DNA of 64,000 bases from Pirellulaceae bacterium (GTDB lineage Bacteria; Planctomycetota; Planctomycetia; Pirellulales; Pirellulaceae), in NCBI GenBank assembly GCA_026004775.1, contig BPJU01000012.1, positions 124,001 to 188,000 on the forward strand. The letters are read 5' to 3'. This document shows positions 5,053 through 59,734 of the stretch, in pieces. The position numbers and the translations under genes are program-made. The notes below the pieces were generated by a model. It was not told the origin of the DNA. It searched no databases and saw only the letters and a list, made by a program, of their open reading frames with translations. Position 1 is the first letter of the stretch. Each line of letters starts with the position of its first letter.

Positions 5053-5072
5053 CCTAGGGCGTAAGCCCTAGG
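5053..5072. repeat. 8-bp palindrome CCTAGGGC / GCCCTAGG
   Basis: CCTAGGGC at 5053-5060 and GCCCTAGG at 5065-5072 flank the loop GTAA. It is compact and lacks a T-tract, so it looks like an interspersed repeat hairpin rather than a terminator. Confidence 0.6.
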
Positions 5073-6204: not shown

Positions 6205-6276
6205 GAAAACTTCCTGCTTTGCCCCGTTGCTCACACCGCCACCGCTTATGAGCGCTGAAACAATCTGAAGCTCGCC

Positions 6277-7641: not shown

Positions 7642-7658
7642 CGGATACCACCCGACGA

Positions 7659-7946
7659 TTACCACTCGATCACTACCGGCTGGCCCAGTTCGATACCCAA
7701 CAGTTCGCGGGCGCTCATCCCGACCACGCGCAATTGCAAATATCCGCCGGCGGCCAGCACGGCCAGGAACGTGGCATGAGGCTCTTGATGCACCTCGTCA
7801 TACAAACCAAAAGTCTCATGCGGATCGCACCACACGCGTACCTTGTCGCTGCGTGGAGCGTCTTGCAACAGGGCAACAGAGATATCCGTAATGGCGTCGC
7901 CCTGCTCCGTAAAACCCACCACTTTTCCTGTGATGCGAACCGACAC
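7659..7946 (-). CDS. Stand-alone C-terminal domain of the SAM hydrolase (DUF62) family
   Basis: The 95-residue protein can be laid along the C-terminal half of its upstream neighbour: GKVVGFTEQGDAITDIS matches VLLVDHFGNLLTDLT, and the end LGIELGQPVVIEW matches YQLAAGDVVRVEW. That is the beta-barrel domain of SAM hydrolase/halogenase-fold enzymes. The N-terminal domain, with the SAM-binding aspartates, is missing, so it cannot act alone as the enzyme is known to. The GTG start at 7946 is chosen for GGGAGG eight bases upstream; a GTG at 7955 is possible. It sits 17 bases before bioA and 262 after the full-length paralog. A ligand-binding or regulatory role is only a guess. Confidence 0.6.
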   Translation of the reverse strand: MSVRITGKVVGFTEQGDAITDISVALLQDAPRSDKVRVWCDPHETFGLYDEVHQEPHATFLAVLAAGGYLQLRVVGMSARELLGIELGQPVVIEW

Positions 7947-8208
7947 GATGCACACCTCCCGGCAATGCGTATCGAGCTATCGGGGAACTTGGGTCCACCA
8001 CAGTCGTTTTTCGGACCGCACGCCTCACCAGATAAAACCTCCGGAATTGTAAACCGTATCGCCCATCCTGGAAACTTGCAGCCCCACGAAAAAGGTGCCG
8101 CGGCACCCGAAGGCCCTCGCCATGCGGAATTGAAGCCGCCAACCGGATCTGGGCCTCGCCATCTACGAGCCGCCGTGCTTCGCGCCCGGCGAGTAGTCGA
8201 ACGCCAGA

Positions 8209-9015
8209 TCACTCGTCCCCGCAGTGCCACTCGACCCGCACCACGTCACCCGCCGCAAGCTGGTAGTCAGCAGCCGCGTTTCCTTGCACCACGGCCACCT
8301 CGAATCGTCCCTGCGACCCGAACAGCCCGACCAGCGTTCCTGCCGGAGCCTCGCCATACGTGCGCACCACCCGGAACGACTGGCCGCCCGGCAACGATCC
8401 TCCCACCAGATGCGCCCGGCGCTGGGCCACCATGGCTTGCGTCAAATCCGTCAACAAATTTCCGAAGTGGTCCACCAACAACACATGAGCCTCTACGAAG
8501 CCGTGGTGCCACTGGGGTCGAGGCCAGGGGAACCGCTGCCAGGTGTTGGTCGGCGAGCCGAGTTCCAACGGTGATACGCCGTTTACCAGGTGCGCCGCCA
8601 CCGGAGCCATGATATCGCGGCCATGAAAGGTACTCGAAACGTCACGGTTCCAATATTCCGGCCTGTCCAGCACCACCACCAGTTCCGGAGGATCACGTTC
8701 CGCCCACAAACTGATTACGCCGTTGTCCGGGCCGACAAACCATTGATCTTTCAAACGGGCTGCCAGCAACCGCCGCTCGGTGCCTACTCCCGGATCCACA
8801 ACCGCCACATGAACCGTTTCCGGCGGAAACCAGAAACACGAGTCATGCAACAGTATTGCAGCTTGACGTACATCTTGCGGGCCGATGTTGTGAGACAGGT
8901 CAACCACGGCTGCCTGAGGCGCCCGCCGCGCCAATACGGCTTTCATTTGCGCCACATAGGGGCTATCCAGTCCGAAGTCGGTCGTGAGAGTAATCCAACG
9001 CCGAGCGGCACTCAT
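8209..9015 (-). CDS. S-adenosyl-L-methionine hydrolase (adenosine-forming), DUF62 family
   Basis: This 268-residue protein belongs to the fold shared by SAM hydrolases and SAM-dependent halogenases. The N-terminal domain shows TLTTDFGLDSPYVAQMKAV, DLSHNIGPQDV and AVVDPGVGTERR, with VGPDNGVIS further on. The C-terminal barrel contains VDHFGNLLTDL and GSQGRFEVAVVQGNAA. Members hydrolyse SAM to adenosine and methionine, or install halides in rare cases. The ATG at 9015 overlaps the stop of gatB as ATGA, so the gene is translationally coupled to the amidotransferase operon. Reaction assignment rests on family. Confidence 0.85.
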   Translation of the reverse strand: MSAARRWITLTTDFGLDSPYVAQMKAVLARRAPQAAVVDLSHNIGPQDVRQAAILLHDSCFWFPPETVHVAVVDPGVGTERRLLAARLKDQWFVGPDNGVISLWAERDPPELVVVLDRPEYWNRDVSSTFHGRDIMAPVAAHLVNGVSPLELGSPTNTWQRFPWPRPQWHHGFVEAHVLLVDHFGNLLTDLTQAMVAQRRAHLVGGSLPGGQSFRVVRTYGEAPAGTLVGLFGSQGRFEVAVVQGNAAADYQLAAGDVVRVEWHCGDE

Positions 9016-43931: not shown

Positions 43932-46049
43932 TCAGCCGGACGGCTGGGCGCGAAACGGTTCGAAAGCGACTCGCCGGCTTTTTTCGGCCCGCCGCAGCGC
44001 CTCACAGGCTCTCTCATACAGCAACTCCTGACTGCGCACCGGACGACCTCGCTGCCGCACCGGAACATACGAACCGTCCGGCAACAGGCGGCGAGCCTTG
44101 ACGTTGTCGCGGAAGTAGGCCCGCAAGATTTCCAGCAGTTTCCGGCGGCAGGCCGGATCTTCCACCGGCACCAGTAACTCGATCCGCCCGTCGAAATTCC
44201 GTGGCATCCAATCGGCACTGGAAATGTACAGCCGCTCGTCGCCGCCGTGGTAAAAATAGAGAATCCGTGCATGTTCCAGAAACCGATCGACGATACTGAC
44301 CACCGTGATATTCTCGCTCAACCCCGGCACACCTGGTCGCAGACAACAGATGCCGCGCACATTCAACTCGACACGCACTTTGGCCTGGGAGGCTCGATAG
44401 AGGGCGTCGATGATCTGCGGGTCGACCAGGGCATTGAGCTTGGCACGGATCAGCGCCTTTTGGCCGTCCTGGCGGCGTTGGATCTCGCCGTCGATCAGCT
44501 CCAGCAACTTTTCGCGCAGTCCGAAAGGCGCCGCCTGAAGTTTCCTCAATTCCGGAGCCTGGGCATAGCCGCTGATGGCATGAAAAAAACTACTGGCTTC
44601 CGCTCCCAGATCTTCATCCGTGGTCAGCAAACTGATGTCGCTGTAAATACGCGCGGTGATCTCATTGTAGTTGCCGGTGCCGAAATGCACGTAGCGCTGG
44701 ATGCCATGAGGTTCACGCCTTACGATGATGCAAAGTTTGGCGTGCGTCTTGAAACCTTTGATTCCATAAATGACCTGAACGGAACTCTGTTCGAGGTTAC
44801 GAGCCCATTCGATGTTGCGCTCTTCATCGAAACGGGCGCGCAGTTCGACAATCGCCGTTACCCGCTTGCCATTCTCTGCCGCTCGCCGTAAAGCGGCCAC
44901 GATGGGACTGTTCCGGCTGGTGCGATAGAGCGTTTGTTTGATCGCCAGTACATTCGGATCATCGGCGGCTTCTTCCAGCAGCCGCACCACCGGCTCGAAA
45001 CTTTCGTACGGGTGGCACAGGACAATCGGCCGGCGTGCCAGGATGTCGAACATGCTGGTACGCGGATCGATCTCCGCGGCCGGCTTCGGGGGCCATGGCG
45101 GAAATTTGAGATGCTCAAAACCGGGCAATTCCGCCAGGTGGTGGAACGCGCCCAAATCGAGCGGCCCAGGTACACGCACCACGTCCTCGTCCCGCACGCC
45201 CACGCAGTCCTGCAAGAACCGACACAACTCGTCGGTCGCCTCCGCCGCCAACTCCATCCGCACGCATGGACTCACTTTCCGAGCATTGAGCACCTCGATC
45301 ATTTCCGAAACAAGATCGGCGGCCTGATCTTCCTGGATCGCCAGGTCCGCATTGCGGGTAATGCGGAAGGCAGCACATTCGACCACCTGCTGTCCCGGGA
45401 AAAACGCCTCGGCCAACATCCAAATGGCGTCCTCCAGCAACACATAGGTGTAGCCGGAGTCGGAGGGGACCGCCAGGAAACGCTGGTTGGAACGGCCCAG
45501 CGGAATTACTGCATATCGATAACCGGACTGTCCCTTCTCGGGAGCCAGCCGCAAACAGAGATTCAGTGCCAGCGGCATCAGCAGCGGAAAATCTTCCGGG
45601 CCATGCACCGCCATCGGCGTGTGCACCGCCAGCAACTCGTCCCGAAACAACCGATCGATCCATTGCTTCTGGCGCACCGTGGCCAACCCCGGCCGAATGC
45701 GGCAAATTCGTTCTTGTTCCAGCTTCGGTTCCAGCTCTTCCAGAAAACAGCGGTATTGCTCCTCCACCATGCGGCGATAGCGGGCGGCGATAGCAGCCAA
45801 CTGCTCGTCGGCCGTAAGCCCCGCCGGGTCAGGACGCGTATTGCCCTGATCTCGCAAGAGCTGCAATCCGCCAACACGTACCATGAAGAATTCGTCGAGG
45901 TTGGTACTGGTGATGGCCAGGAACCGCACCCGCTCCAGCAGGGGCGTTTGCGGATCATGAGCCTCATCCAACACGCGCTGGTTGAATTCCAGCCAGCTCA
46001 ACTCCCGATTGAAATACCGCGCGTCCTTCGCTTGTATCGGCATCGGCAT
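43932..46049 (-). CDS. ppk1: Polyphosphate kinase 1
   Basis: The enzyme makes polyphosphate from ATP. The 705-residue protein shows the N-domain RYFNRELSWLEFNQRVLDEA, DEFFMVRVGGL, the head domain and two PLD-fold catalytic domains: KQTLYRTSRNSPIV, YGIKGFKTHAKLCIIVRRE with the phosphorylated histidine, HFGTGNYNE, and LYISSADWMPRNFDGRIE. The ATG at 46049 is chosen; 46043 and a GTG at 46082 are alternatives. It follows ppx by about 260 bases and precedes sixA. Confidence 0.95.
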   Translation of the reverse strand: MPMPIQAKDARYFNRELSWLEFNQRVLDEAHDPQTPLLERVRFLAITSTNLDEFFMVRVGGLQLLRDQGNTRPDPAGLTADEQLAAIAARYRRMVEEQYRCFLEELEPKLEQERICRIRPGLATVRQKQWIDRLFRDELLAVHTPMAVHGPEDFPLLMPLALNLCLRLAPEKGQSGYRYAVIPLGRSNQRFLAVPSDSGYTYVLLEDAIWMLAEAFFPGQQVVECAAFRITRNADLAIQEDQAADLVSEMIEVLNARKVSPCVRMELAAEATDELCRFLQDCVGVRDEDVVRVPGPLDLGAFHHLAELPGFEHLKFPPWPPKPAAEIDPRTSMFDILARRPIVLCHPYESFEPVVRLLEEAADDPNVLAIKQTLYRTSRNSPIVAALRRAAENGKRVTAIVELRARFDEERNIEWARNLEQSSVQVIYGIKGFKTHAKLCIIVRREPHGIQRYVHFGTGNYNEITARIYSDISLLTTDEDLGAEASSFFHAISGYAQAPELRKLQAAPFGLREKLLELIDGEIQRRQDGQKALIRAKLNALVDPQIIDALYRASQAKVRVELNVRGICCLRPGVPGLSENITVVSIVDRFLEHARILYFYHGGDERLYISSADWMPRNFDGRIELLVPVEDPACRRKLLEILRAYFRDNVKARRLLPDGSYVPVRQRGRPVRSQELLYERACEALRRAEKSRRVAFEPFRAQPSG

Positions 46050-46308
46050 GGTCAACCCAAATCCCCAAGACCTTCCGGCCACTCGCTATCCGCAGGCATC
46101 TATCAGGTGCCCCCTCATTCGGGAAACGTGTTCTCAAGAAAGGAGCCACCTGCGCCGGTCGAAGCCATTATGTTAAGTGCCCCGTTAGCGCGATCAAGCG
46201 CGCGGGAAAGCGACAGTGAGCTGCAACCGCGAGCTCGAGTTTGGCCACGCATGCTTGTCCGGCACTTTGCCCCGGGCTGTGCCCCACACACTCGATGTTT
46301 GGCCGGCC

Positions 46309-47907
46309 CTAGTTGTCGGCCGGCTCGCGCCGCGGGAGCACCTGCACTCCCATCCCAAATGTCTCCTCAAACAGAGTGCTGTTCTGTCTCATTGCCAATT
46401 GTTCCAACGCCAGATTCTCCACCCCGCCTACATAAATCACCAAGCTGTTGTCTTCCATCACGCATTCCACGTCTCGAACCCGCTGGGTGCGGGATTCATC
46501 CAGAGCGATTGCCAGTCGCAGCAGCGAGGCCATGGCCGCCACAGCCACGCGGTCATCCCGGCTTAACGCCGCATATTCGGCGTGTGTCGGCTGGGGTGAC
46601 GAGCGACGGTGGTAGCGGGCCGTCAAGGCAACCAACAACAGGTCCTGACGGCTCAAACCAAACAGCTCGCTGTTCCGGATCAAATACAGTGCATGTTTGT
46701 GATGGCTGCGCACGTTGACAAATTGCCCGATTTCGTGCAACAGAGCCGCCACGTACAGAATCACTTCGTGACGCGGACTTAATTTGTGCAACCCGCGCAA
46801 CTGGCGGAACAATGTCCGCGACAATTCCGCCACATGCCGGGCGTGGGGCTCATCAAAACTGTAACGCCTTCCCAGATCCAGCGCCGAGCGGATGATCTGT
46901 TCGCTGAAATCCCGCGACCAGTGCCGCTGGACCGCCATCTCCTGAAGCAGCCCGTCGCGGAGGTTAACGGAGCTAACCAGCAGATAAGGCCGCTGGAAAG
47001 CTTGGGCCAAGTGCCAATACGACAGCAAGGCAGCCCCCAGCGTTTCGGCTTCCGGCCATGGAACATGGTAGCGCTGCACGATCTCTTCATCCGTAAGGCG
47101 CGTGATCTTGCCGGCCAGAGACTCCAGCGCTTCGACCGGCAACCGCACCAGGCGATCGGCCGAAAAATCGTCCACCAACCGCGACGCCGCCCAACGCACG
47201 TCCCCGCCCAGAGCCACCAGTTCTACCGATTCTCCCTGCAAGACGTTGGAGACCTGTTTGCGAATCTGGTGGACGACGCGCTGGATGTGAGACTCCATCA
47301 ATTCGCGGATGCGTCGAGTCGGCGCGTGGAGGTTTTCGATCGTCTTGCGCAGCCGCAAGGACCCCAGACGGTATGTGGCGGCAAACACCACGTCGCCTCC
47401 GCGCACCATCAACAGTTCAGTACTTCCTCCACCAACTTCCGTGACCAGAGCGCGTGCCGACGCCAGCGCGGCATCTTCACGCAACTGCGGTTCGATTCCC
47501 AGATACGTGATCCGGTTGACCTCCGCCTCATCCAACGGCTCCACTTCCAGACCTGTGGCGATGTAGACGCGATCCAGGAACGCCAGGCGATTGCGGGCTT
47601 CGCGAACAGCACTGGTCGCCACGACACGAATCTGGCTGGGAGAATCGATCTGATATTCTTCCAGAATCGAGCGATAGCTGCGCAACACCCGCACACACTC
47701 TTCGATCGTACTGCGAGCAATGGTGCCGCCGGTGAACGTGTCCTTTCCCAGACTGACGGCTTGAGCCAAGGTTTCCAGTTTGCGGACATGGCCGTCTTGG
47801 CCGATCTCGGCGACCGCCAGCCGGATTGAGGTTGTGCCGATATCGATAACAGCAGCCGTGCGGAGCGAACGCTCCGTAACCGCTGCCGCCTTTGTCACCT
47901 GGTTCAT
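46309..47907 (-). CDS. ppx: Exopolyphosphatase/GppA family protein with HD domain
   Basis: The 532-residue protein combines an ASKHA-fold Ppx/GppA domain (about 17-320) with a C-terminal HD domain. Visible are AAVIDIGTTSIRLAV, VVATSAVREARN, and the phosphate loop EVGGGSTELLMV. The HD part includes YVAALLHEIGQFVN and HHKHALYLI. Its target is long-chain polyphosphate or guanosine pentaphosphate; the sequence alone does not decide. It lies between the ROK kinase and ppk1 genes, all reading the same way with gaps of 75 and about 260 bases, which suits a polyphosphate turnover unit. Confidence 0.9.
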   Translation of the reverse strand: MNQVTKAAAVTERSLRTAAVIDIGTTSIRLAVAEIGQDGHVRKLETLAQAVSLGKDTFTGGTIARSTIEECVRVLRSYRSILEEYQIDSPSQIRVVATSAVREARNRLAFLDRVYIATGLEVEPLDEAEVNRITYLGIEPQLREDAALASARALVTEVGGGSTELLMVRGGDVVFAATYRLGSLRLRKTIENLHAPTRRIRELMESHIQRVVHQIRKQVSNVLQGESVELVALGGDVRWAASRLVDDFSADRLVRLPVEALESLAGKITRLTDEEIVQRYHVPWPEAETLGAALLSYWHLAQAFQRPYLLVSSVNLRDGLLQEMAVQRHWSRDFSEQIIRSALDLGRRYSFDEPHARHVAELSRTLFRQLRGLHKLSPRHEVILYVAALLHEIGQFVNVRSHHKHALYLIRNSELFGLSRQDLLLVALTARYHRRSSPQPTHAEYAALSRDDRVAVAAMASLLRLAIALDESRTQRVRDVECVMEDNSLVIYVGGVENLALEQLAMRQNSTLFEETFGMGVQVLPRREPADN

Positions 47908-47982
47908 AGAACACGCATACTTTGGACACCGCCGGGTCGGAGTGTGCGGTACGGGTCGGAACGGCAGTTCGGGTACCGGAAA

Positions 47983-48978
47983 TCAGCCGACGGGTTCGGC
48001 CGCGCTGTGCCGTTTTTCGGCCCATGCCGCTGCCCCTAGGGCCGTGGCATCGTCACCCAGTTGCGCCGGCTTGACTTCGAACAAGTCCCGATAGGCCGGC
48101 ATCAATGCCTCGCGCGCCGCCTGATGCACTGTCTGCACATACCACGCCGGCATGGCCTCGACCAACCCACCCCCCAATACTACCACCTCCGGGGCCAACA
48201 GATGCACCAGGGCGGCCACGCCCAGGCCTAGAGCTCGAGCCGCATGGCGCACAATCTGCTCGACCACCGTGTCGCCCAAGGCGATCGCTTCCGCCAGTAC
48301 TCCGCTACGGATATCTTCCACGGCCGTGCCGGCCAGGCGTCGCAAGTGCGGCGCATCACCCCGGTAGGCCGCCCGTGCCGCTTCCGAAGCAATGGCCAAC
48401 CGGCTCGCCACCGCCTCCAAACAACCACGGCCACCACATCCGCATAGCGGCCCGTCCGGCAAAACACGGATGTGACCGATCTCCATGGCCGACACGCTGT
48501 GCCCCCGCAGGATCTCTCCTTGATATACGCAGCCACCGCCGATTCCGGTTCCCGGAAAAATACCAACTGCGGTGCGGGCGCCCCGAGCTGCCCCGAATCG
48601 CCACTCGGCATACACCCCCAAATCCACATCGTTCGCCACCTCGACCGGACACCCGAACCGATCTTCCAGACGCTTGCGCACCGGCACATGGCGCCAGCCT
48701 AAATTGATCGCCTCGTGCACGACTCCTTCTTCCAACTGCACGGGCCCCGGGCAACCAACCCCGATCCCAGCTAACCGCTGCCGTTCGACCCCCGCTTCAT
48801 CCAGAAGTTCCTCGATCATCTCCATAATCCGATTCAGGCCGGCCTGTTCCCCTTCGTGCCCCTTGGACTTTTTGCGCTTCCGCGCAAGCGGCTGGAACTG
48901 GCCATCGAAAAGCACCGCCAGCATCTTCGTTCCGCCCAGGTCGAACCCAACCCAGCAGGGATCATCCGGAATAGCCAT
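47983..48978 (-). CDS. ROK-family sugar kinase (glucokinase-like)
   Basis: The 331-residue kinase phosphorylates a hexose, probably glucose. The ATP loop is GFDLGGTKMLAVLFD; VANDVDLGVYAEW supplies the catalytic aspartate; FPGTGIGGGCVYQGEI, EIGHIRVLPDG and the zinc motif CGCGGRGCLEAVAS are the ROK signature. AAGGAG lies nine bases before the ATG at 48978. It begins the ROK-ppx-ppk1-sixA row. Known polyphosphate glucokinases are ROK proteins too, and the neighbourhood invites that idea, but the GTGIGGG loop matches ATP-dependent glucokinases. Confidence 0.9.
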   Translation of the reverse strand: MAIPDDPCWVGFDLGGTKMLAVLFDGQFQPLARKRKKSKGHEGEQAGLNRIMEMIEELLDEAGVERQRLAGIGVGCPGPVQLEEGVVHEAINLGWRHVPVRKRLEDRFGCPVEVANDVDLGVYAEWRFGAARGARTAVGIFPGTGIGGGCVYQGEILRGHSVSAMEIGHIRVLPDGPLCGCGGRGCLEAVASRLAIASEAARAAYRGDAPHLRRLAGTAVEDIRSGVLAEAIALGDTVVEQIVRHAARALGLGVAALVHLLAPEVVVLGGGLVEAMPAWYVQTVHQAAREALMPAYRDLFEVKPAQLGDDATALGAAAWAEKRHSAAEPVG

Positions 48979-49125
48979 TGGTCCAAACTCCTTGCAGAGC
49001 CATCGGCTTGCCCACCGCCTTAAGTCTACCTCAAAGTGCCGGCCGAAAAACCACCGCACCCTGCCCTACAAGACGGCCAAAGGACTGGCGGTCCCTTCCG
49101 GCAACCCACATCGGCCAGCCATTTG

Positions 49126-49905
49126 CTAATCGGCGGGAAGCACAAAAAGCCTTTGCTGCACTTGCTGGGCCGGCCAGCCAAGCCGTCTCAAAGCAAACTC
49201 CCGCAATTCGGCCGCCGGTTGGGACGATGCAAGAAGAAGTTGAAAAGGAACCGGCATCTGAAAGAGGCGCGCCGCATGCGTTTCCAGGGCTGCCAGCAGG
49301 CCGTGTCGTTCTTTAACCACGCGATCCATGTCGTCCCACGCCACCCACTCCAGATACGGCCTCAGCCGTTCGTCGTTCAAGAACGCCGGAAGCTCCTCAG
49401 GATCAGCCACCCAAAGATGGGGGACAGATTCCCTCGCCGTAGGCCAAGCCGCCGAAGAAGGGCCATTCCATGGTCCCACGACAACCAGCCCCTGCATCCC
49501 CAGTTGCCGGCACACGCGGTTCAAGCTTTCGTAAGCCTGTTGGCAGGCCGAAGCATCGCGGCATACCAGGAGCCCATCCTGGCCACGGGCGGCCACAGCA
49601 AACAGACTGCACGCGCGCAGCACGGTGCTCTTACCCGAGGAGGCCGGCCCGGCCACGATCAGCGTACAGCGACTCAATGCCGGCCCCGTATAGGAGCCTG
49701 CGTGTGGTTCTCCGATAAGTCCCACCAGTTCCTGATATTGATTGTGGCTTGCCCGAAGCGCCGCCAACTGCTGCGGGCGAAGAGGGGTCACGTCGCAATA
49801 CAATTCATAAACGGCAGAATCCATAGCCCCGAGCCTGGTATCCCTTTTGTTTCCCCGACAAACATACGGCGGCACAACCTCCCCATTGCTGCCGTCAATG
49901 ATCAC
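49126..49905 (-). CDS. Small P-loop NTPase, last gene of the tubulin-like cluster
   Basis: The 259-residue protein holds a Walker A loop, VAGPASSGKSTVL (86-94), and a Walker-B-like EWVAWDDMDRVV (about 187-197). An N-terminal PLRPQQLAAL resembles a helicase Q-type opening. The length suits one RecA-like domain; the second motor domain of a helicase is absent. It looks like half of a DEAD/DEAH ATPase turned to another purpose, which is inference. Its GTG start overlaps the stop of the 722-residue gene as GTGA. An ATG at 49824 is an alternative. No sensor or arginine-finger motif was seen. The ROK gene begins 147 bases downstream. Confidence 0.6.
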   Translation of the reverse strand: MIIDGSNGEVVPPYVCRGNKRDTRLGAMDSAVYELYCDVTPLRPQQLAALRASHNQYQELVGLIGEPHAGSYTGPALSRCTLIVAGPASSGKSTVLRACSLFAVAARGQDGLLVCRDASACQQAYESLNRVCRQLGMQGLVVVGPWNGPSSAAWPTARESVPHLWVADPEELPAFLNDERLRPYLEWVAWDDMDRVVKERHGLLAALETHAARLFQMPVPFQLLLASSQPAAELREFALRRLGWPAQQVQQRLFVLPAD

Positions 49906-52070
49906 TTACGTTTCAGGCGGTCCGGGCGTGCTTGAGACAGCGGTAGGCGATGGTTGCCCATCATTCGATTCAGTGGAAGCCGCTCGAACAATAGCCCCAC
50001 CAACGGGAGTTGATCGGGTATGTATTGCCAGGCCCGCACCTCGCCAATGCGATCGGAAAACTCACTGGCCACTCTGTCTCGTGTCGGCCAGCGCTCGTGC
50101 GCAAAGAAAAACATTTTCGGGCGTCCGTCGGGCTGGTAACCGCTGGGCCAGGAAGTACTGGCAAAACCCAAATAATTGGCCTGAAAAACCGTCTTGCGAA
50201 ACCGGTCGGCAAACAGGTCACTGATCTTATTGCTCAATTCCCGCAGCAATGCCGTAAACAACACCCTGGTGGCCTCACAGGTCATCTGTCGCAAATCAGC
50301 CGCCAACTCCCGCGCCCAACGGTGGTGGGCCGACTCGCTTTCAGCCCCTCCTTGTCGAACGTCTTGCCAGTACGGCCGCCACCGCTGGATCACGAACGAA
50401 TCCCGTTTCTCGCGTAACCATTCAACGAAACTGCTTTCATGGGAACCCTCGATAGCCCGGACTAATTCGGAACGATCAACCAGGAATGACCAGTTCATTT
50501 CCGCGCGGATATCCCGCGCCTGTATCAGTTTCGGTTCGAGTTTCGACTGATCCCAGTCGGATAGGGAAGAACGGAAACCGATCCAATATTGGGTGGGGTC
50601 CCAGCGAGCCTGTTGATACAACGATTGCCAGATGTCACTCATCCGCCGGCGCCACTGGCAAGCAGCCGCATGAAAACGGAGCTGCCGGCGTAGTTTTAGC
50701 GCCGCGGTACTGATACGAAGAGCCAACCGAGCTTGACGGAGCCTAAGACCGGTTATTTGCCGCCGCAGGAGTTTTTCTGAATTGCGTTGCCGGAGCCAGC
50801 GGCGCCAACCCAGCAAAGCCAGGCCTCCCCAGCCCACCACCAGCGCGCCCACGGCACCGGCGACAGCTACGTTTGTATCGGCCCGCCGCTGGAGCTCAAC
50901 GTAGGCCAAGGCGCTCACCCCCAGCACCAGGCCGGCCAATACCGGCCAGAGTGTCTTCCACCAGCCGAAAGGTTTCTTGGCAGCCGCTTCGCGCCACCGC
51001 AGAAGCTCGCGTGTCACCGCCGCGTGTTGCGTCAGCGCCTCGCGCCATTCGTCCCACACCGATTGCATGGCGTCGGCGTTTTGTTGCAAGACCGGCAACT
51101 TGCCCTGAGCCCATCCGGTCATATAGGCAGGGTCGCTGGACAATTGATCCCAAAGCTGGGACTCCAGATCATGCCACGCTTCAGGCCATGGGCCGTCCGC
51201 GCCTCGGACGTGCTTCTGCCACAATTCTGCCACATCCGCGGCTCCCGTCGGCTCAGGGAGTTCCGGCAGCCGAGCCCCAGAAAAAGTTGGTTTTCCGGCG
51301 TGGAGTAATTTGGCCAGCAGATCCAATTCCCATTCGTTGTCCCGCAGGAGCTCTTCTTTCAATTCCATGGTTAACCGATAACCGCGCCACGCGTTGACGC
51401 CATGGAAGTCTTCCAATGCTGGAGACTGAAGGATCGCCAGCAACAGAGTTCCCACTGCATACGGCCAAATGTAAGACGCGTGCAGGATTCGCTGCCGGTC
51501 ATCACGTTCCAAACAACGCGTCATCAAGAAGACGGCCCGGAACGAACATATGTCATTGGACTCGGTCCATGCAAACAGCACGTTTTCTTCTTCAGGCAAC
51601 AGCTCCCTTTCGGCCACCACCACTAGTACGTGTCGCACGTGGCAGGCGCGATTGGCAAGAGCGTCCTCCAGATACTTGCGGAAGTTCCAATAGCTGGCCA
51701 GCTTCGCCTCGATATTTGCCACCCTGGCCCCCTCACACTGCCCGACGTGGGGCTCCCTGCCCGGCATCCCTTCACGCCCGCCGGACGACGGCTCCAGAGT
51801 ATCCCCTTGCGGCAACACCACCAGGCAAACGCACGTATCGTCTCCCAGACGCCCCAGGATGGTCTCTCGCCCGGCCTGGCCCAGCGAACGCCATGTAGGG
51901 CTGTCCGGCTGGAACCAGTCCAATGAGATGCGGACACAGCCATCCGGCTGCGGTTCGATGAGCAACTCCTCGGGAGCTTTCAGTTCATGAAACAAACCGG
52001 GCAGGTCGCTTTCGTCGACCAGCCTTCGATAAATGGAATCTTCGGTTACCAGCACGATGCGTTTCGGCAT
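49902..52070 (-). CDS. Two-TM protein of the tubulin-like cluster, unknown family
   Basis: The 722-residue protein has a mixed N-terminal region (1-215), a helical middle (230-365), two adjacent membrane segments (about 372-391 and 401-421) and a C-terminal region of 300 residues. The C-terminal part is rich in Arg, Trp and Gln and probably helical. No known motif was found; there is a possible short GxGGxG-like GGREGMPG in a loop. The start is an ATG with AAGGC close by, 14 bases after the stop of the tubulin-like gene, and it overlaps the P-loop gene at the other end. Tight packing implies a shared role. The middle TM pair would place both halves on one side of the membrane. Confidence 0.65.
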   Translation of the reverse strand: MPKRIVLVTEDSIYRRLVDESDLPGLFHELKAPEELLIEPQPDGCVRISLDWFQPDSPTWRSLGQAGRETILGRLGDDTCVCLVVLPQGDTLEPSSGGREGMPGREPHVGQCEGARVANIEAKLASYWNFRKYLEDALANRACHVRHVLVVVAERELLPEEENVLFAWTESNDICSFRAVFLMTRCLERDDRQRILHASYIWPYAVGTLLLAILQSPALEDFHGVNAWRGYRLTMELKEELLRDNEWELDLLAKLLHAGKPTFSGARLPELPEPTGAADVAELWQKHVRGADGPWPEAWHDLESQLWDQLSSDPAYMTGWAQGKLPVLQQNADAMQSVWDEWREALTQHAAVTRELLRWREAAAKKPFGWWKTLWPVLAGLVLGVSALAYVELQRRADTNVAVAGAVGALVVGWGGLALLGWRRWLRQRNSEKLLRRQITGLRLRQARLALRISTAALKLRRQLRFHAAACQWRRRMSDIWQSLYQQARWDPTQYWIGFRSSLSDWDQSKLEPKLIQARDIRAEMNWSFLVDRSELVRAIEGSHESSFVEWLREKRDSFVIQRWRPYWQDVRQGGAESESAHHRWARELAADLRQMTCEATRVLFTALLRELSNKISDLFADRFRKTVFQANYLGFASTSWPSGYQPDGRPKMFFFAHERWPTRDRVASEFSDRIGEVRAWQYIPDQLPLVGLLFERLPLNRMMGNHRLPLSQARPDRLKRK

Positions 52071-52084
52071 GCCTTGGGTCCCAA

Positions 52085-55000
52085 CTACTGGTCTTGTTCT
52101 TTCAAGAGGTCGTTGGCGTAGTCGATCAGTTGCTGCCAGATGTCTCTGGCTTGATCGTCATCACGAGCCACTTCACGACTTCGGTCACCGAGCCACTGCC
52201 GGTAGTCGGTGAGGAGCTTTTTGTATTTGGGGGTGCCACTGGCGATGTCGATCCGCCGCAGAACTTGATCCCAGAACAGGCGAGCTTCTTTCAGGATACG
52301 GTCGCGGTAGTTACGGCCGACGTCTCCTTTCTCCGCATCGTCACCTTTGAGCACGCGGAAACAGCTGGCGATTCCCGACTGGCGCGCCACCGCGTTGTCG
52401 CGATCCCAACCGGTCAAGCCTTGCATGGACGGATCGGTGCGTACGGCGTCCCCATCCAATTCCAAGGGTAATCGCGTGAAGCGGTACCAGTTACCTTTAT
52501 TGACGATCAGGGGCATGCTCCAGCCGAATTGCTCCAAGGCCCCCCGGAGCTGTTCCAAGTCGGGCGTCAGCCGGTCGTGACCGGGGAACAAAGCATAGAA
52601 AAGCGCCTCGATCGCCAGCCGCTCATTCTTTCTGGTAATCGTTTCCTCACTGACCCACGGACACCACCGATATCCTCGTATCTGCTCATCTTTCACATAC
52701 AGCGGATCCGTATAACCGAGGCCGCCGTTTCGGCCTCCCTCGAAGATCGTTGCACCATCTTCATTTTCTGCCTCGCGCAGCAGTTGCAGCACCTCGGGTT
52801 TGTTGTAATAGCGCAGCGATTCGATATCGTTCAACGAATCGACCCCTTGCGTCGAGTAGGCGAGCAGGAGGAACGGATTGGAGCCGCCCGTCCCTCCATC
52901 ACCTGAGGCTTCCGGGTAGACCTCCACATCTACGTAAGTTGCTCCTTCCTGCTGGAGCAGGGTCTGCACACGGTCTTTCAACCAGGCCCGGTCTGCGGTG
53001 CACGGAAGGAAAAGTGATACGTTGAATCGTTCGTCTTGTCTGCGGTTCAACACCCAGAACGGCTTGCAGGTTCGAGCCAACGACGCCGCCATGTGGCAGA
53101 ACATTTCCGTGACATTTTCGGGAAAGTCATATTCTACCTGATCGACGTCCTTGCGGCGCATCGGCTGGAATCCGAACATTTCTTTGAAACGTTGTTCCAA
53201 TTGGTATCTTTCATCGTCTGTCCAGTTTTCTTCCAACCGCCGCCGCCAAGCCGCCATGATATCTCTTACCACTCGCTGCAGTGAGAAATTCTCCGTGATA
53301 AAATCGACAGGTATACCTACGGTGGCGTCGACTTTGGATTGCAACTGTCGCAACAACTGGTCCCGCAGTGCTGTTGGATCCGAAGTACCGGGAAAGAAAA
53401 TCGCTTCCCGGAGAATAGCGGTGACGTCCGGGTGGATATGCACATACCGCTGTACCAGTTTCAGATCATCACCCTTGGCCAGTAGCGGCTTGAGCTCACG
53501 TCGATAAAACCGTTTTTCCGAAAACCTTTGGTCGATCGCTTCCTCCGGGCGGTCCGGTGGGCCGAACAACCGTTCGAAAGCAGTGGCGCCGCCGGCTTCG
53601 GCCAATTCCTGCTCGCTGGCCAGTTGGTAGCGTCGTTCCAGCCGGGTGGCCGTCTCGCGAGCGTTCCGCACGCGCTCGACCAACTGTTGCAACTGATCGA
53701 TCCATTTCTGGTACTGTTGCCGCAAGCGGGGACGAATCGCTGCGTATTGGGCGCGAAGGAGCGTGAATCGCGCCGTCTCGTTGATCTTCTTTTTTTCCTG
53801 ATCGCTGAACCGTATCCAAATGGCGGGAAGCTCCCGATTGGAAAATTCGCGAACCATCTGGGGCAGGTCTTGCCGTCCGAAACCGATCTCGGCAGGCAGT
53901 TCGTCGATTGCCGAGCGCAGTCCGGCGCAGAGCTGGAATACGAATTCGTCGACGCTCGTCAACGACGCGGTCTCGTCCAACAGCTTCTGCGCCATGTCGG
54001 TGGCCAGCCGCACCGGGTCGACCGGCAATGTAGCCAGAACTTCCTGAAAGGCGGCTTCCACCTGCTCCTCATCCTTCCGCTTGATCCCCTCGGCCAGGCG
54101 CACCGCATCGTCGACCTTCTGTTCGTTGAGGACCGTGGCCAGTTGATCAAGCCGGAATTTCATCTTGGCCTCGACTCGGGCCAGTACACGCTGGAGAAAC
54201 GTGCCATGCGGGTCGGGCTGGTAAGCCGGCAGAAATTCTTCCCGAGTCGGTATGCCCAAGGCCGTTTTTTCCCAGAACAAAGCGACACTCTGAGTAACTC
54301 GTGCAGCATCTCCTTCCAGCAGGCGGCGCACGGCAGCCATGCGTGCCAGTCTCTCGAAATAGCGTCGCAGCGAAACAGCCCCCACCTCGAAGGTGGCAGT
54401 GGCTACTCCCAAATACGAGAACCGCTGGTTGATCTGCGTGCGCGTGATGGCGCTTTTGGTAAGTGCCCCGTAAATACCGGCCGCCACCATTTCATAGTAC
54501 TGCTCATGGTTGGCCAATTGCGTCATCTGATTCTCTTTGAAAATCAGATAGGCGTGGTCCACCGGCGCCGCATTGTTGACATCCAACTCCAGATCGACCT
54601 TCAAGACGTCCGTTTCCGGATCCTGCGGCGATTCCAGATTCGGCAGCCGATATTGGAAGATCGCATCGCGATGGATATGACCTTTTTGGCGATTCAGCGT
54701 CCAGCAAGCAAGCTGCGACATGCCGGTCAACGAATTGACCATCATCGGTACCTGCAATTCAGTAATTTGCAGGAAAAGATCGCTGAATATACTGGCGTCA
54801 TACAGAAAGGCCCGCGGCGTCGGAGCGCGACCATAGCGGGAAAACAACTCGCGCAGCTTGAAGGCGATCAACTCCCACGAGCCACGGCCGGTTCCCCCGG
54901 CCAACCCCGCCACGATCACCAGATTGATGTCATCATACCGTCCCAGCCCCCCTTTGCGTCGCTGGATTTCGCGAATGAGATTCTCGAATTGTTGCTCGAT

Positions 55001-55450
55001 GTCGTGCAGTTTTTTCCATGTCAAAAAATACGACACAGGTGGGCACTGGCCGGCCCCATCACGCAAGGGGCGCACGGCCGGAGCACGGAACGGATCGGCG
55101 GCTCCCCGGTGCCACCAGTGTTCCAATAGCCGCATCTGAGGTTCACAGCCGAGCCGATCCCGGAAGGGGTCGACCATATACCGGTCCACCAGCGGTTGTA
55201 GATGGGTTTCCCCACTGGAAAGTGCGACCTGCATGATGTGCGGCAACTGCGGCATGCCTCGCAAGTGCTCGCGGACCGCGTTCTGAAACTGCTCGATCTC
55301 ATCGACGTCCGTGTCCACCACCACGTAATAAATGTCCCGATCCATACGGCGGCGCCACGACACATCTTCACTCAATAATTCGTTCAATCGCCGCAGCGTA
55401 CGAATCCCGGACCCACCACACCCAACCAGTACATGCACTTCACCCGCCAT
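52085..55450 (-). CDS. Tubulin/FtsZ-like GTPase-fold protein, large
   Basis: The 1121-residue protein has the marks of the tubulin/FtsZ superfamily in its first 200 residues: T1 loop VGCGGSGIRTL (9-19), VVVDTDVDE (44-51) as the T2/T3-like strand and loop, and the T4 signature AGGTGRGS (184-191), the superfamily's GGGTGS/T equivalent. Beyond this it differs from FtsZ: the T7 NxDFAD is not visible, and about 700 helical residues follow, with several long charged helices (about 430-520 and 570-680). The length is roughly three times FtsZ. GGAGC lies eight bases before the ATG. It sits between the VWA gene and the 722-residue gene. It agrees with the Tubulin_2/FtsZ-like family placed by Makarova and Koonin beside VWA genes, from memory. 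Confidence 0.8.
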   Translation of the reverse strand: MAGEVHVLVGCGGSGIRTLRRLNELLSEDVSWRRRMDRDIYYVVVDTDVDEIEQFQNAVREHLRGMPQLPHIMQVALSSGETHLQPLVDRYMVDPFRDRLGCEPQMRLLEHWWHRGAADPFRAPAVRPLRDGAGQCPPVSYFLTWKKLHDIEQQFENLIREIQRRKGGLGRYDDINLVIVAGLAGGTGRGSWELIAFKLRELFSRYGRAPTPRAFLYDASIFSDLFLQITELQVPMMVNSLTGMSQLACWTLNRQKGHIHRDAIFQYRLPNLESPQDPETDVLKVDLELDVNNAAPVDHAYLIFKENQMTQLANHEQYYEMVAAGIYGALTKSAITRTQINQRFSYLGVATATFEVGAVSLRRYFERLARMAAVRRLLEGDAARVTQSVALFWEKTALGIPTREEFLPAYQPDPHGTFLQRVLARVEAKMKFRLDQLATVLNEQKVDDAVRLAEGIKRKDEEQVEAAFQEVLATLPVDPVRLATDMAQKLLDETASLTSVDEFVFQLCAGLRSAIDELPAEIGFGRQDLPQMVREFSNRELPAIWIRFSDQEKKKINETARFTLLRAQYAAIRPRLRQQYQKWIDQLQQLVERVRNARETATRLERRYQLASEQELAEAGGATAFERLFGPPDRPEEAIDQRFSEKRFYRRELKPLLAKGDDLKLVQRYVHIHPDVTAILREAIFFPGTSDPTALRDQLLRQLQSKVDATVGIPVDFITENFSLQRVVRDIMAAWRRRLEENWTDDERYQLEQRFKEMFGFQPMRRKDVDQVEYDFPENVTEMFCHMAASLARTCKPFWVLNRRQDERFNVSLFLPCTADRAWLKDRVQTLLQQEGATYVDVEVYPEASGDGGTGGSNPFLLLAYSTQGVDSLNDIESLRYYNKPEVLQLLREAENEDGATIFEGGRNGGLGYTDPLYVKDEQIRGYRWCPWVSEETITRKNERLAIEALFYALFPGHDRLTPDLEQLRGALEQFGWSMPLIVNKGNWYRFTRLPLELDGDAVRTDPSMQGLTGWDRDNAVARQSGIASCFRVLKGDDAEKGDVGRNYRDRILKEARLFWDQVLRRIDIASGTPKYKKLLTDYRQWLGDRSREVARDDDQARDIWQQLIDYANDLLKEQDQ

Positions 55451-55514
55451 AATGTTGCTCCAGCAATACGCCTAGTTCGTGCCGTTCAATTCGCCGCTCG
55501 GTTACTCCCGACAA

Positions 55515-58500
55515 CTATCGATAGACCCATTGCCATGCACAGACTAACAGTACCGCTGCCACCGCCAAAAGCACCGTATGCAACACCCACGGCAGCACGC
55601 TGGATGACTCATCCAGCAGCAATTCCAGATATACATGCCGGTAATCCGCTTCGGGGCAACGGTGGTCTTTCAACTGGTAAATGATGCGGCGCTGGTCCTC
55701 CAAATAGGTATCGAACTGAACCTGTGGATTCCCCGTACCGGAAAACTCCACAACCGGCCGCAGGTCGCCGCCGGCTTTGACGCCCTGCACGGTCAGCCGT
55801 TCCCGACTCCCCTCTCCCGTCGCCCAATAGTCGTGCGTGCTACCCAGCAGGTTCGCCATAGGCACAACCGCTTTCTTGGAAACCCACCTCCAGTTCCGGG
55901 CCAAGCCGTGCGACGGACAATATTCATCCGGTGGCTTACCCAAGCTCCAAAGGATCTTCCAGGCACGGGGTTTATTGCCGCGAAGAAGATGCCAGCCCGC
56001 GCCCCATCCTGCCGCAACGGCAACCGCCAATAACACAAACAGGGCGTGATTGGGCCTGCGAAACACCTCGATCGAGAAGACCGCTTCGCTCCGAGGCGCC
56101 ACGTTTGTACCGTACTGGGTAGGCCCAATGGCAACCAATTCGATCCTTTTCTTGCCCGGTTCCTGAAATGTTAACGTATTCGTTTCGAGCTTCTTACCAT
56201 CCACGTACCACTCGTGTGCCACGACATCTCCAGTGGACTTGTTCTCCAGGTTGATCGTATCTCCGACGTAGACTCGTTGTGCCGGACGGCCGCCGACGAG
56301 CAGTTGTCCTTGAGCCTGGGGCGGCGTGGCGCTGACGCTGACGTTTATTTTTTCCTGAAACCGCCGATTCCCCTTCAAATACACGACTGCGGTCACCGGA
56401 AAATTGCCCGTCTGATCGTACGTATGCGATATTGTTACCCCCGACGGATTGCGTATCGCTGACGGATCTTGAATAACAAATTTATCTCCGTCGCCAAAAT
56501 CCCAGTCAACTTTTTCGACTCGGCCGGCGTCATTCACGCTAACCCGAAATTCCGCCGCCTTTCCGTAGGAAACCGCGTTAGGACCTTCCAGCTTGCCGCT
56601 GGGCACCGGATAGTCCACACGGTAGGTTACTTCATGCCGAGGCTCTTCCAGACGACAAAATGTCCCGGCCTCCTGATACGCGTCGCTGAGAATGCCGACA
56701 GCTTTTATTACAAATTCCTTGGCTGGGTAGGCATCGGCAAACACATGCTGGAATGTAGCTTTTCCGTCGACTACCGGGCAAATGACGTTCACGAGTGGCA
56801 TCGGGTCATTCGTATCCTGCGCAGGTGCAGCAGCGGCTTGCCCTGAACTTTGCCAGCCTGAAGAATTCGGCCCGGGTTGTTTCCCGGTTTCCTTACCGAC
56901 TTTTTCCCAGATCACAAACCTCACCTGTATGATCGCTCCCTGTACCGAGGCTTCAAACGTAGCAGGCTCGCCGTAGAGCAGCGTCTGTTCGGGCTGCGGC
57001 TTGGTGATAACCACGTTCGGACGCACATACACTTTGACCGAATATTCATCCGACTCCACCGCAGCCTGCTTGGAATAGCCGGCCAACTTGATTTTATGGT
57101 CGCCGTCTTTATCGAACCGAAATTCCAGCGACCACTCGTTCGTATTCGTGACCTGTTCGCCTTCATAGCGTACTCCGTCGACCCACCAATCCAGGCGCTC
57201 GATCGGACCGCGCGCCTTGGCTCGGAGCTGGCACAAGGTTTCCAGAAAAATCGGATGTTTCGGCGGGTCAAAAAGAACGGCCAATTCGATCACATTGATG
57301 TTTATGGACTTCGTGGTTGGCCCGCGCGGCGGCTCGCCTACCGTCACGCTTACCTGATACTGACCGGGCGCATGGTACGTGTGAGATGTTTCGTAGCCTG
57401 TGCCGCTGTGACCGTCACCAAAATCCCAAAGTACTTTTGCCCCCGATTCGACATTGACAAAGAACAGCACCGGCTTACCCACTACGAACGTCGCATCATC
57501 GCGCGGACGGATATCGAAAATCTGGATACGCTCCCCTTTTTGGAACTGAATCTCGACCCTGTCCGGCGCCTTGATGGTAAATGGATCCACGTCAGGATAT
57601 TTCAGCAGTAAAACACCCTGGTAGCTTTCCTCCAGGGAAAGTTGCTTTGGATTCTCAACTTCCAATTCTACCTCAATCGGTCCTTTCCGCAGTGCAAAAG
57701 GTGTGGCACGGACCCGTATGGGCTGATTACCGGCAGGCTGAAACTCTGCTTCAACGCGTACAGTGGGAGGAACGAGATCCCAAACCGCATTTTCTGCCAG
57801 GAATTCCAGGGTCAGGGTCTGGCGCGGTTCCAATACGGCGTTTCGCAAAACGTATTGGGAACGCACCAAACTCAATGGCAGAGGTGACTTGAATTGCCCT
57901 TCGCTGGCATTTGAAACACCGGGCAGGATATCCTTCAATGGAAGGCCGTCGCCGGGCGCACGCGTATAAAAGATCCACACATTTTTGTTCTGGTTGACAA
58001 TCTGTTGGAACTCGCGGGCAAGACTCTCAGGATTCCATTTCTTGGAACTCTCATCTTTGCCGTCCGTGTAGGCATAGACCCCCACCATGCGATTGGGATT
58101 TAATTGCGACAATCGCCGGGCCTCTTCAAACGCTTTAGCCAGAGTATCATAGAGTGCCGTCCCGCCGTCGGGCTTTCCAAAACCGTTCTGGATTTTTTCG
58201 ATCAGCGCTTGGCGATCCTGTTCTGTACGGAAAGGCGCCACCCACCCTGCCGGCACCTCGTGGTTGAAGACGGCAAGCCAGACGTGCGACCCAAGAGGAA
58301 TGCGCCGCACCAGGTCACATGCCTGCCGCTGCATCTCTTGCCAACGAGTTCGGCTGCCGTCGGGCAACGGTGTATTCATCGAGCCCGAATGATCGATCAC
58401 CAACAGGTACGCAATGGTAGGAGCTTCCTGCGCTGGTGCAGGATCTTGAGAAAAAGTCAAAGGGGAGGCCCAAAAGGCTGCCAACCCAAAACAGGTAGAT

Positions 58501-58727
58501 AGACAGATTGAAGCTGCTGCGGCCCATCGGCCCAATCCGCTTCGATTTACTGCCCGCCATCGGCTCACATTCGCATGAGCCCGCTGCTGCCGCGCCAATC
58601 CACCGCCCTGGTTACTGCTCAGACGATACAAGATTCTCATACGCCACACTTTTGCTGTGGTTAGAGCTTCGAACCGCCGGCCGCACGCCTTCCAGTCAAT
58701 GCTGGCATGCCCGCGCCTTCTCACCAC
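55515..58727 (-). CDS. Exported VWA-PKD membrane protein of the tubulin-like cluster
   Basis: The 1070-residue protein has a long N-terminus, then a signal-like hydrophobic segment (about 67-87), a von Willebrand A domain (about 105-285) and two PKD-type domains, near 417-475 (WDFGDGHSGTG) and 716-800 (DWDFGDGD). The MIDAS motif DHSGS is at 112-116, with the Thr in GGTALYDTL and the Asp in YTDGKD. Beta-rich segments lie between them. Two C-terminal membrane segments (894-912, 1046-1066) flank a soluble part of about 130 residues with a Cys-His pair (CPSHG). The GTG at 58727 follows GGAG by seven bases; an ATG at 58640 is an alternative. The VWA and PKD parts would face the periplasm. It probably links the cluster to the envelope. 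Confidence 0.78.
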   Translation of the reverse strand: MVRRRGHASIDWKACGRRFEALTTAKVWRMRILYRLSSNQGGGLARQQRAHANVSRWRAVNRSGLGRWAAAASICLSTCFGLAAFWASPLTFSQDPAPAQEAPTIAYLLVIDHSGSMNTPLPDGSRTRWQEMQRQACDLVRRIPLGSHVWLAVFNHEVPAGWVAPFRTEQDRQALIEKIQNGFGKPDGGTALYDTLAKAFEEARRLSQLNPNRMVGVYAYTDGKDESSKKWNPESLAREFQQIVNQNKNVWIFYTRAPGDGLPLKDILPGVSNASEGQFKSPLPLSLVRSQYVLRNAVLEPRQTLTLEFLAENAVWDLVPPTVRVEAEFQPAGNQPIRVRATPFALRKGPIEVELEVENPKQLSLEESYQGVLLLKYPDVDPFTIKAPDRVEIQFQKGERIQIFDIRPRDDATFVVGKPVLFFVNVESGAKVLWDFGDGHSGTGYETSHTYHAPGQYQVSVTVGEPPRGPTTKSININVIELAVLFDPPKHPIFLETLCQLRAKARGPIERLDWWVDGVRYEGEQVTNTNEWSLEFRFDKDGDHKIKLAGYSKQAAVESDEYSVKVYVRPNVVITKPQPEQTLLYGEPATFEASVQGAIIQVRFVIWEKVGKETGKQPGPNSSGWQSSGQAAAAPAQDTNDPMPLVNVICPVVDGKATFQHVFADAYPAKEFVIKAVGILSDAYQEAGTFCRLEEPRHEVTYRVDYPVPSGKLEGPNAVSYGKAAEFRVSVNDAGRVEKVDWDFGDGDKFVIQDPSAIRNPSGVTISHTYDQTGNFPVTAVVYLKGNRRFQEKINVSVSATPPQAQGQLLVGGRPAQRVYVGDTINLENKSTGDVVAHEWYVDGKKLETNTLTFQEPGKKRIELVAIGPTQYGTNVAPRSEAVFSIEVFRRPNHALFVLLAVAVAAGWGAGWHLLRGNKPRAWKILWSLGKPPDEYCPSHGLARNWRWVSKKAVVPMANLLGSTHDYWATGEGSRERLTVQGVKAGGDLRPVVEFSGTGNPQVQFDTYLEDQRRIIYQLKDHRCPEADYRHVYLELLLDESSSVLPWVLHTVLLAVAAVLLVCAWQWVYR

Positions 58728-59029
58728 TGCGGGGCTCCATCCCCGCCAATCTAACTAAAACGAATGCTATCCTTCAATAGTCTACGGATTTTTTGGCTGA
58801 TTCCTGACACGCTGTTCTGCCGTCGGCCAGAAAAACCCTTCGGAACAGGAAAAATCTACGGCTCGATCGAAGTTGGCGCAGGGAATTCGCCGCCCCCCTG
58901 AAGAACTGGACGGGCAAAGCCCTGCTTTGCCGTGGTCGATGCCCGCTCGATCCAACTGCCTACGCCCCGCCATGCGATAGGCGGCGCAGCGCCGGTGGCG
59001 AACCTACCGTCTGATCACAGCCACCGGCG
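58728..59029. other. Intergenic gap inside the cluster
   Basis: 302 bases separate the 234-residue gene and the VWA gene. It holds a short palindrome (GGGCAAAGCCCTGCTTTGCC, near 58911) and may contain a promoter, but I see no clear pair. The cluster is therefore probably two transcripts. Confidence 0.4.
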
Positions 59030-59734
59030 TCACGGCTTGACAAAGCGTTGGCGAAACTCCGGCTCGACTTCAAATCCCTGAAGCCACTCGTCCTTCAAGA
59101 CCGGATAAACAGTGCGCACCAGGACAGCGTTGGGCAGGTGAGAAACTTCCTGCCGGCGCCGTTCGGCCAACTTTTCCGGCAGATTCACCAGTTCCACACC
59201 CAGCTTGTATAGGCGAACCACTTTCTTCAGCGGTCGGTGGAAAACCAATCGAGGCGGCACAAGGAGCATTTCGGGGACGAATTGCAGGACCGGCTGCTGG
59301 CACAACTGCGCTCCGAGCTGTTGTGCCCAAGCGCGGATGTCGGACTCGGAGACCAGCATGCAATCCCTGCACACCATCACCGGCCTTCCCTCGAAGAAAT
59401 AAACCACCTCCAGTCGTTTCGGCAGATTCCGTTCCCACTCCTCCCGCAGCTCACCCAGCCAGATCAAGACCGCCACGGCGAGCGTCAGCAGGCTGAGCAG
59501 CGCTTCGGTGGGGGTCCACCAACCCAGCGAGCTCTCCTGCCAGGGCCGGATGACGGCGATCAGCAGCCCGCCCAGCACGAGCGCTCCGATCAGGACGCGC
59601 CACCAGCCCCGAATTACATCCGCCGCGCAAAACCGAATGATTTCCCATCGCGACAATCGCTGTAAGGATGGCGGTCCCGGGGAGGCTGCTGAGGTATTGG
59701 TAACGAGAGGCTCTGGGTTCTCCGGTAAGGTCAT
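59030..59734 (-). CDS. Two-TM protein at the head of the tubulin-like cluster
   Basis: The 234-residue protein has two membrane segments (about 44-62 and 77-93) and a C-terminal soluble domain of about 140 residues with a Cys pair (CRDCM). The soluble part has alternating charged helices and strands (LEVVYFFEGRPVMV, LVFHRPLKKVV). No family was recognised. GGGGA lies seven bases before the ATG at 59734. It reads toward the VWA gene with a 302-base gap. Membership in the system is inferred from strand and position only. Confidence 0.55.
   Translation of the reverse strand: MTLPENPEPLVTNTSAASPGPPSLQRLSRWEIIRFCAADVIRGWWRVLIGALVLGGLLIAVIRPWQESSLGWWTPTEALLSLLTLAVAVLIWLGELREEWERNLPKRLEVVYFFEGRPVMVCRDCMLVSESDIRAWAQQLGAQLCQQPVLQFVPEMLLVPPRLVFHRPLKKVVRLYKLGVELVNLPEKLAERRRQEVSHLPNAVLVRTVYPVLKDEWLQGFEVEPEFRQRFVKP

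Follow-up and report, generated by a model that had tools for sequence, protein, structure and literature searches.

Proteins of the FtsZl1 family were described by Makarova and Koonin in 2010 and were predicted to remodel membranes (PMC2875224). They are about 1000 amino acids (aa) long, with an N-terminal FtsZ-like domain that carries the GTP loop, a helical extension and no identifiable T6-H7-T7 region; an extended coiled coil is followed by a helical C-terminal domain. A VWA gene lies next to most, not all, members. OmpA partners were reported only 'in several genomes', most other partners being lineage-specific and many of them bearing transmembrane (TM) segments, and kinase-fused FtsZl1 proteins of planctomycetes had already been noted in 2010 (PMC2875224). 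Passages in other papers list FtsZl1 in a Gemmata genome (PMC4672568) and mention it beside VWA (PMC5898192), and a 2023 paper refers to these proteins as FtsZ-like and keeps them out of its main trees (PMC9871819).

The window analyzed here is a stretch of 64,000 nucleotides from a Pirellulaceae bacterium (assembly GCA_026004775.1, contig BPJU01000012.1, positions 124,001 to 188,000). The subject of this report is a minus-strand cassette in it that encodes an exported VWA-PKD protein, a tubulin-like protein of 1121 aa, a protein with two TM segments (2-TM protein) and a P-loop NTPase. By its sequence, the tubulin-like protein belongs to FtsZl1 and is not a new kind: it matches PF13809 and has a VWA neighbor, which bears out an initial annotation of the window where it pointed to the FtsZl1/VWA systems that Makarova and Koonin had proposed. 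The core of the system is not new, because length, helical extension, unrecognizable T7 motif and VWA partner are all usual in FtsZl1. What may so far be undescribed is the branch, together with the four genes fixed in it; literature searches, limited to open-licence papers, found no paper on it.

The cassette and its tubulin-like protein

Five minus-strand open reading frames had been marked at 49126-59734, all of which are present at those positions, and four of them are the conserved unit as judged from the comparison of loci. The VWA-PKD gene (55515..58640, ~1041 aa from an ATG at 58640, with a GTG at 58727 as a possible start) is separated by 64 bp from the tubulin-like gene (52085..55450), which is followed after 14 bp by the gene for a 722-aa 2-TM protein (49902..52070); the latter overlaps the gene for a 259-aa P-loop NTPase (49126..49905) by 4 bases. 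The 14-base spacing and the GTGA overlap noted initially among the last three genes agree with these measurements. The same order was found in 5/5 loci with enough flank (the window, L083, L090 (= L101), L095 (= L103) and L100), gene calls in the relatives' loci being made by our own heuristic. The fragment L102, which ends inside the tubulin-like gene, has the VWA gene followed by the tubulin-like gene only. The 2-TM proteins of L083, L090, L095/L103 and L100 are ~770-800 aa long and have a central TM pair. Scans of the five proteins with PADLOC, NCBIfam and PHROGs gave nothing indicating function.

The 1121-aa protein consists of an N-terminal tubulin-like domain (~1-355), a helical region and a mixed C-terminal part. 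A tubulin-fold match, on which the initial annotation had made its proposal depend for residues 1-420, was obtained in two ways. Pfam gave PF13809 (Tubulin_2) at residues 6-343 with E 2.9e-27 and 96.3 bits against a cut-off of 27; PF00091 (FtsZ/tubulin) reached 22 bits, below its cut-off of 33, and neither FtsZ_C nor Tubulin_C matched at E<=1. The structure model, an AlphaFold2 prediction on five sequences, is of low confidence, with a mean predicted local distance difference test (pLDDT) of 62 and a predicted template modeling score (pTM) of 0.39; it contains a long helix at 550-616 (67 residues) and further helices and strands, and is of use for the tubulin domain alone. A second structural aligner placed residues 4-339 of this model on gamma-tubulin (best Z 17.4, root-mean-square deviation 2.9, 190 residues aligned), with CetZ and FtsZ at Z ~15-16, and the 50 rows shown were all from the tubulin superfamily; the comparison barely covers the protein beyond residue ~340. 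Foldseek of the model gave no match at E<=0.001, its top rows mixing tubulins, FtsZ and unrelated Rossmann folds, and the sequence search against solved structures returned nothing useful for this protein. The assignment as tubulin-like accordingly stands on Pfam and the second structural aligner, and the fold is a predicted one.

The T1 loop (GCGGSG, from residue 10) and the T4 loop (GGTGRG, from residue 185) are present as first read and are conserved in the branch. Both are identical across a five-sequence alignment; L083 has GCGGTG in T1 and the identical T4. The window T4, AGGTGRG, departs from the FtsZl1 motif GGGTG(S/T)G at the first (A) and sixth (R) positions. Using FtsZ naming, we take the helix at 315-332 to be at the position of H7, where the pLDDT of the model is ~50. 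Behind this putative H7, placed by the same weakly modeled region, Asn341 is invariant in the branch and no Asp is conserved, and the stretch that follows is shorter than in other VWA-type FtsZl1 proteins. Since no T7 Asp is recognizable, an FtsZ-like hydrolysis cycle is argued against, without proof, and if the protein hydrolyzes nucleotide or assembles at all, it probably does so in another way than FtsZ. Neither the 1121 residues nor the lack of a visible T7, both pointed out in the initial annotation, is a peculiarity of the window protein, these being the published norm for FtsZl1.

The unrecognizable Asp pattern and the shorter stretch after the putative H7 would suit a tubulin fold that no longer polymerizes and acts as a nucleotide-gated signaling scaffold downstream of the VWA sensor, and 'do not form filaments' is among the three options listed by Makarova and Koonin (PMC2875224). 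Such a scaffold is nevertheless rather unlikely: the branch strictly conserves T1 and T4, and all characterized FtsZ-tubulin proteins form filaments, according to the same authors (PMC2875224).

Partner proteins and a proposed mechanism

The VWA-PKD protein matches VWA_2 (4.6e-08) and PKD_4 (3.9e-21) in Pfam. Hydropathy and motif scans give the order N-terminal hydrophobic segment, VWA domain with the metal ion-dependent adhesion site (MIDAS) DHSGS, PKD/Ig repeats, TM segment, ~130-aa loop and TM segment. It had been read initially as an exported neighbor with an intact MIDAS, which agrees with these scans, and its two C-terminal hydrophobic segments enclose a loop of 129 residues. Two C-terminal TM segments, 148-175 residues apart from start to start, are present in 5/5 scanned VWA proteins of the branch, and the VWA protein of L102, a sixth member, aligns with the others across this pair. 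Eight VWA proteins outside the branch (L062, L066, L081, L082, L085, L086, L089, L093) have at most one, that of L085 none. Because the loop begins with basic residues in an alignment read by eye, it would face the cytoplasm; TM topologies throughout are hydropathy estimates, made with no dedicated program.

Three VWA-FtsZl1 loci have an MlaD (MCE) gene directly before the VWA gene (L062 13516-14394, 3.6e-10; L081 7808-8551, 8.5e-08; L085 13345-14445, 4.6e-08), a possible tie to phospholipid transport, and an ATPase resembling the coupling protein of type IV secretion systems lies in the VWA-FtsZl1 gene run of L086 (14693-15970, 1.6e-57) and L085 (15202-17961, 2.8e-05). These neighbors point toward a transport or lipid-trafficking machine, in which the tubulin-like protein would be a scaffold or switch that moves lipids or proteins across the envelope; transport or signaling was also proposed by a reviewer in 2010 (PMC2875224). 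For the window such a machine is unlikely, since L062, L085 and L086 lie far off in the tree, on another branch (the tree does not include L081), and the window's five proteins have no MlaD or coupling-protein match at E<=1.

The 722-aa protein, which matches no Pfam family over cut-off, has a TM pair (373-391 and 401-419) between long soluble arms. Both arms are predicted to be cytoplasmic because the hairpin carries basic residues at both ends (alignment read by eye). Its homologues occupy the same position: those of L083 and L090 match each other, that of L100 was found by tblastn (1e-8) and that of L103 by profile (2.8e-54). The family is weakly conserved, with 19-22% identity, but the L100 and L103 matches make the relationship firm. 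Its profile, which matches genome G576 at 1.5e-15, was found in 3/240 family genomes, namely the window's, G430 and G576, all with a window-type tubulin; the profile was built partly from sequences of the window genome and G430, and G576 supplied none. Extension of the family to similar-sized proteins of L086, L089, L092 and L093 was rejected, as no homology was detectable and only position, size and TM pair are common to them. Transglutaminase-like proteins follow the 2-TM gene in two VWA-FtsZl1 loci, L093 (14256-15413) and L089 (7660-8793, below cut-off).

The 259-aa protein carries the Walker A motif GPASSGKST, with the P-loop near residue 86, and a Walker B-like WVAWDDMD (read by eye). Its Pfam matches to DEAD (2.8e-05), nSTAND and AAA are below cut-off, and a profile search against solved structures gave weak P-loop matches, the best being KaiC at 1.5e-4. 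It consists of one RecA-like lobe. Similar proteins occur in L100, L101 and L103, and it was aligned with these and with that of L083. Of the 'half-helicase ATPase' of the initial annotation, the single P-loop lobe stands and the helicase does not: Helicase_C was matched neither in the window protein at E<=1 nor in the long relatives of L100 and L101 at E<=0.1, and the combination of a P-loop lobe and a second RecA lobe that marks superfamily 2 helicases does not appear in the 259-aa protein. The relatives have an N-terminal region with four to six hydrophobic segments, which the window protein lacks. The L083 frame stops ~190 residues after the P-loop, and the L100 and L101 proteins continue for several hundred residues.

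The components of a mechanism are evident at the level of sequence, namely a tubulin-family nucleotide-binding domain with intact T1 and T4 loops on a long tail that is predicted to be largely helical, an exported VWA-PKD protein with an intact MIDAS, a protein with a central TM pair, a P-loop NTPase and a conserved gene order. We tentatively favor, at slightly less than an even chance, a tubulin-like scaffold that is anchored in the membrane and coupled to a VWA sensor of the envelope, in a rare divergent branch of FtsZl1. The VWA-PKD domain would sense or grip something outside the inner membrane, and the C-terminal TM pair of the same protein would expose its ~130-residue loop on the cytoplasmic side. 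The tubulin-like protein may bind nucleotide and assemble or switch shape at the membrane, where it could be held by the VWA loop and the TM-hairpin protein, and the P-loop NTPase may load or remodel the assembly. The outcome would be a nucleotide-regulated scaffold through which events at the envelope are linked to the cytoplasm, plausibly to shape the membrane locally.

Several points weigh against this scaffold. With the T7 Asp pattern unrecognizable, an FtsZ-like cycle may not occur. The AlphaFold2 model of the tubulin-like protein is of low confidence, as given above, and that of the 722-aa protein is useless (pLDDT 36). The locus may be partly reduced, because its NTPase is without the membrane domain of the relatives. 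Conservation is lower in the VWA loop, with a mean pairwise identity of 0.23 vs 0.32 in the VWA domain. Some link is required between a tubulin-like protein in the cytoplasm and a VWA domain outside, for which only this loop offers a suggestion, and the same objection to a cytoplasmic FtsZ-like protein paired with an external VWA domain was raised by a published reviewer (PMC2875224). The literature searches, confined to open-licence papers, found no experiment on any FtsZl1 protein.

A single Tubulin_2 gene was found in the window genome, and PF00091 was not matched there at E<=0.001 but was matched in 13/14 control genomes. A stronger claim is that this only detected tubulin-superfamily protein, a giant with no recognizable T7, forms a new membrane-bound filament or lattice, assembled by the NTPase, anchored by the hairpin, controlled from outside by the metal-dependent VWA domain and distinct from FtsZ, CetZ and TubZ; we regard this as distinctly unlikely. 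If true, this would give planctomycete envelopes a cytoskeletal machine, in a bacterium where no FtsZ is detected.

Distribution and genomic setting

Tubulin_2 was matched in 9/199 genomes of the phylum, 184/397 of the class and 162/241 of the window's family; sampling within the phylum and the class was done by the search tool, and these two counts are not prevalences. FtsZl1 is common in the family, and a compact four-gene unit with defined partners is a tractable system in which to ask whether so divergent a tubulin fold can assemble and what role it has in cells without findable FtsZ. All 38 chosen family loci (L042-L079) match Tubulin_2, 36 of them together with Pkinase at E<=1e-5. The window type, searched by branch profile, occurs in 2/392 phylum genomes (E<=1e-20) and in 1/52 family genomes (E<=0.001; 52 of ~241 searched, with G430 and G576 outside the 52), and a contig scan by two short peptide patterns gave four loci, in two Phycisphaeraceae metagenome-assembled genomes (MAGs) and two unplaced Planctomycetota MAGs. 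The tubulin-like family diverges fast: in 196 genomes of the order, BLAST with the window protein had no hit other than the query itself, although Pfam hits exist there. The initial proposal of fixed VWA, 2-TM and P-loop partners is borne out in true orthologues by the gene order and the 2-TM profile. On the refuting condition of the initial annotation, homologs without the VWA and 722-aa partners in most genomes, the outcome is divided: the arrangement is kept in the branch orthologues and absent in 36 of the 38 examined family FtsZl1 loci, which are kinase-fused.

In a maximum likelihood tree of 48 N-terminal domains, the window, L083, L090, L103 and L100 form one branch (support 100/100, length 3.25), separate from the other VWA-linked and the kinase-fused members. 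L053, L063, L075, L080, L081, L084 and L097 were omitted where the motif pattern failed, L091, L094, L095 and L096 were omitted by hand, and the fragment L102 was not used. The window sequence groups with the one from Phycisphaeraceae and not with the two from its own family, a weakly supported pairing (95/39) that is a hint of transfer. Genome G576, a single contig, has three FtsZl1 genes, of which L082 is VWA-linked, L083 window-type and L084 kinase-type by motif; L082 and L083 are on separate branches, and L084 was not placed.

The cassette is flanked by pheS-pheT and by a block of ROK kinase, Ppx and polyphosphate kinase genes (ROK-ppx-ppk, window 43932-49059). Among relatives, ROK-ppx-ppk are together in 5/8 ppx loci and pheS-pheT in 5/7 pheT loci, and none of the cassette genes was matched in 15 flank loci at E<=1e-8, a threshold that a strongly diverged 722-aa or 259-aa copy would escape. 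On these counts the ROK-ppx-ppk block was rejected as part of the operon. The cassette was accordingly gained in the window lineage or lost in the relatives. A mobile-element origin was rejected: no relative was found in phage, plasmid and viral-contig collections, and no flanking repeat was convincing among those listed. Promoter-like and terminator-like sites were below the shuffle means.

This setting bears on a defense or conflict system, with an exported sensor, a tubulin-like core and a STAND/helicase-like NTPase responding to phage or stress. The rare, patchy distribution of the window type and the below-cut-off matches of the NTPase relatives to AAA_16 and nSTAND would fit it, but the pheS-pheT and ROK-ppx-ppk flanks, the absence of relatives from the phage, plasmid and viral-contig collections and the lack of a strong PADLOC match (2023 library; the VWA protein gave the best one, to TerY at E 0.0038) make it very improbable.

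The fifth gene (59030..59734, minus strand), which encodes a 234-aa 2-TM protein without a Pfam family over cut-off, had been counted with the others in one unit. It was excluded, and the five-gene unit rejected, because no counterpart was found in the orthologous loci; it is not conserved with the other four. From its stop it is 389 bp to the likely VWA start (302 bp to the GTG). By tblastn it has no relative in L100-L103, where the region upstream of VWA is covered for L100 and L103 only. It matches four other family genomes, two of them weakly, and neither G430 nor G576, the family genomes with an orthologous cassette, is among them. No cassette gene lies beside its homologues in the regions read, one of which is only 5.6 kb long. 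Elsewhere in the window, an Acido-Lenti-1 RNA was matched at 5025-5072 (40.4 bits).

Comparison with known systems

The window protein resembles FtsZl1 proteins in length, N-terminal FtsZ-like domain, predicted helical extension, unidentifiable T7 and the presence of VWA and TM neighbors. It differs in forming a separate long branch, in a VWA protein with two C-terminal TM segments, in the 722-aa 2-TM protein and the P-loop NTPase as fixed partners, and in a cassette without OmpA or kinase match in Pfam. The missing OmpA, initially put forward as a difference of note, loses that standing beside the published account, where OmpA is restricted to several genomes and other partners are mostly lineage-specific.

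The planctomycete kinase-fused FtsZl1 proteins belong to the same family and have an N-terminal protein kinase domain. By our gene calls, 32/36 of their loci have an upstream gene on the same strand that encodes 365-610 aa, its product being P-loop-like in the two tested. In L064 the neighbors of the kinase-fused FtsZl1 gene, at 5877-7001 and 7307-8632, are a gene for a P-loop protein of 441 aa on the same strand and a divergent FHA-EAL gene, a hint of a cyclic di-GMP link; other loci have candidate counterparts, alike in size and position.

With FtsZ, tubulin and CetZ the window protein shares the predicted N-terminal nucleotide-binding fold (Z ~15-17). Compared with them it is much longer, its PF00091 score is below cut-off and its T7 Asp pattern is unrecognizable.

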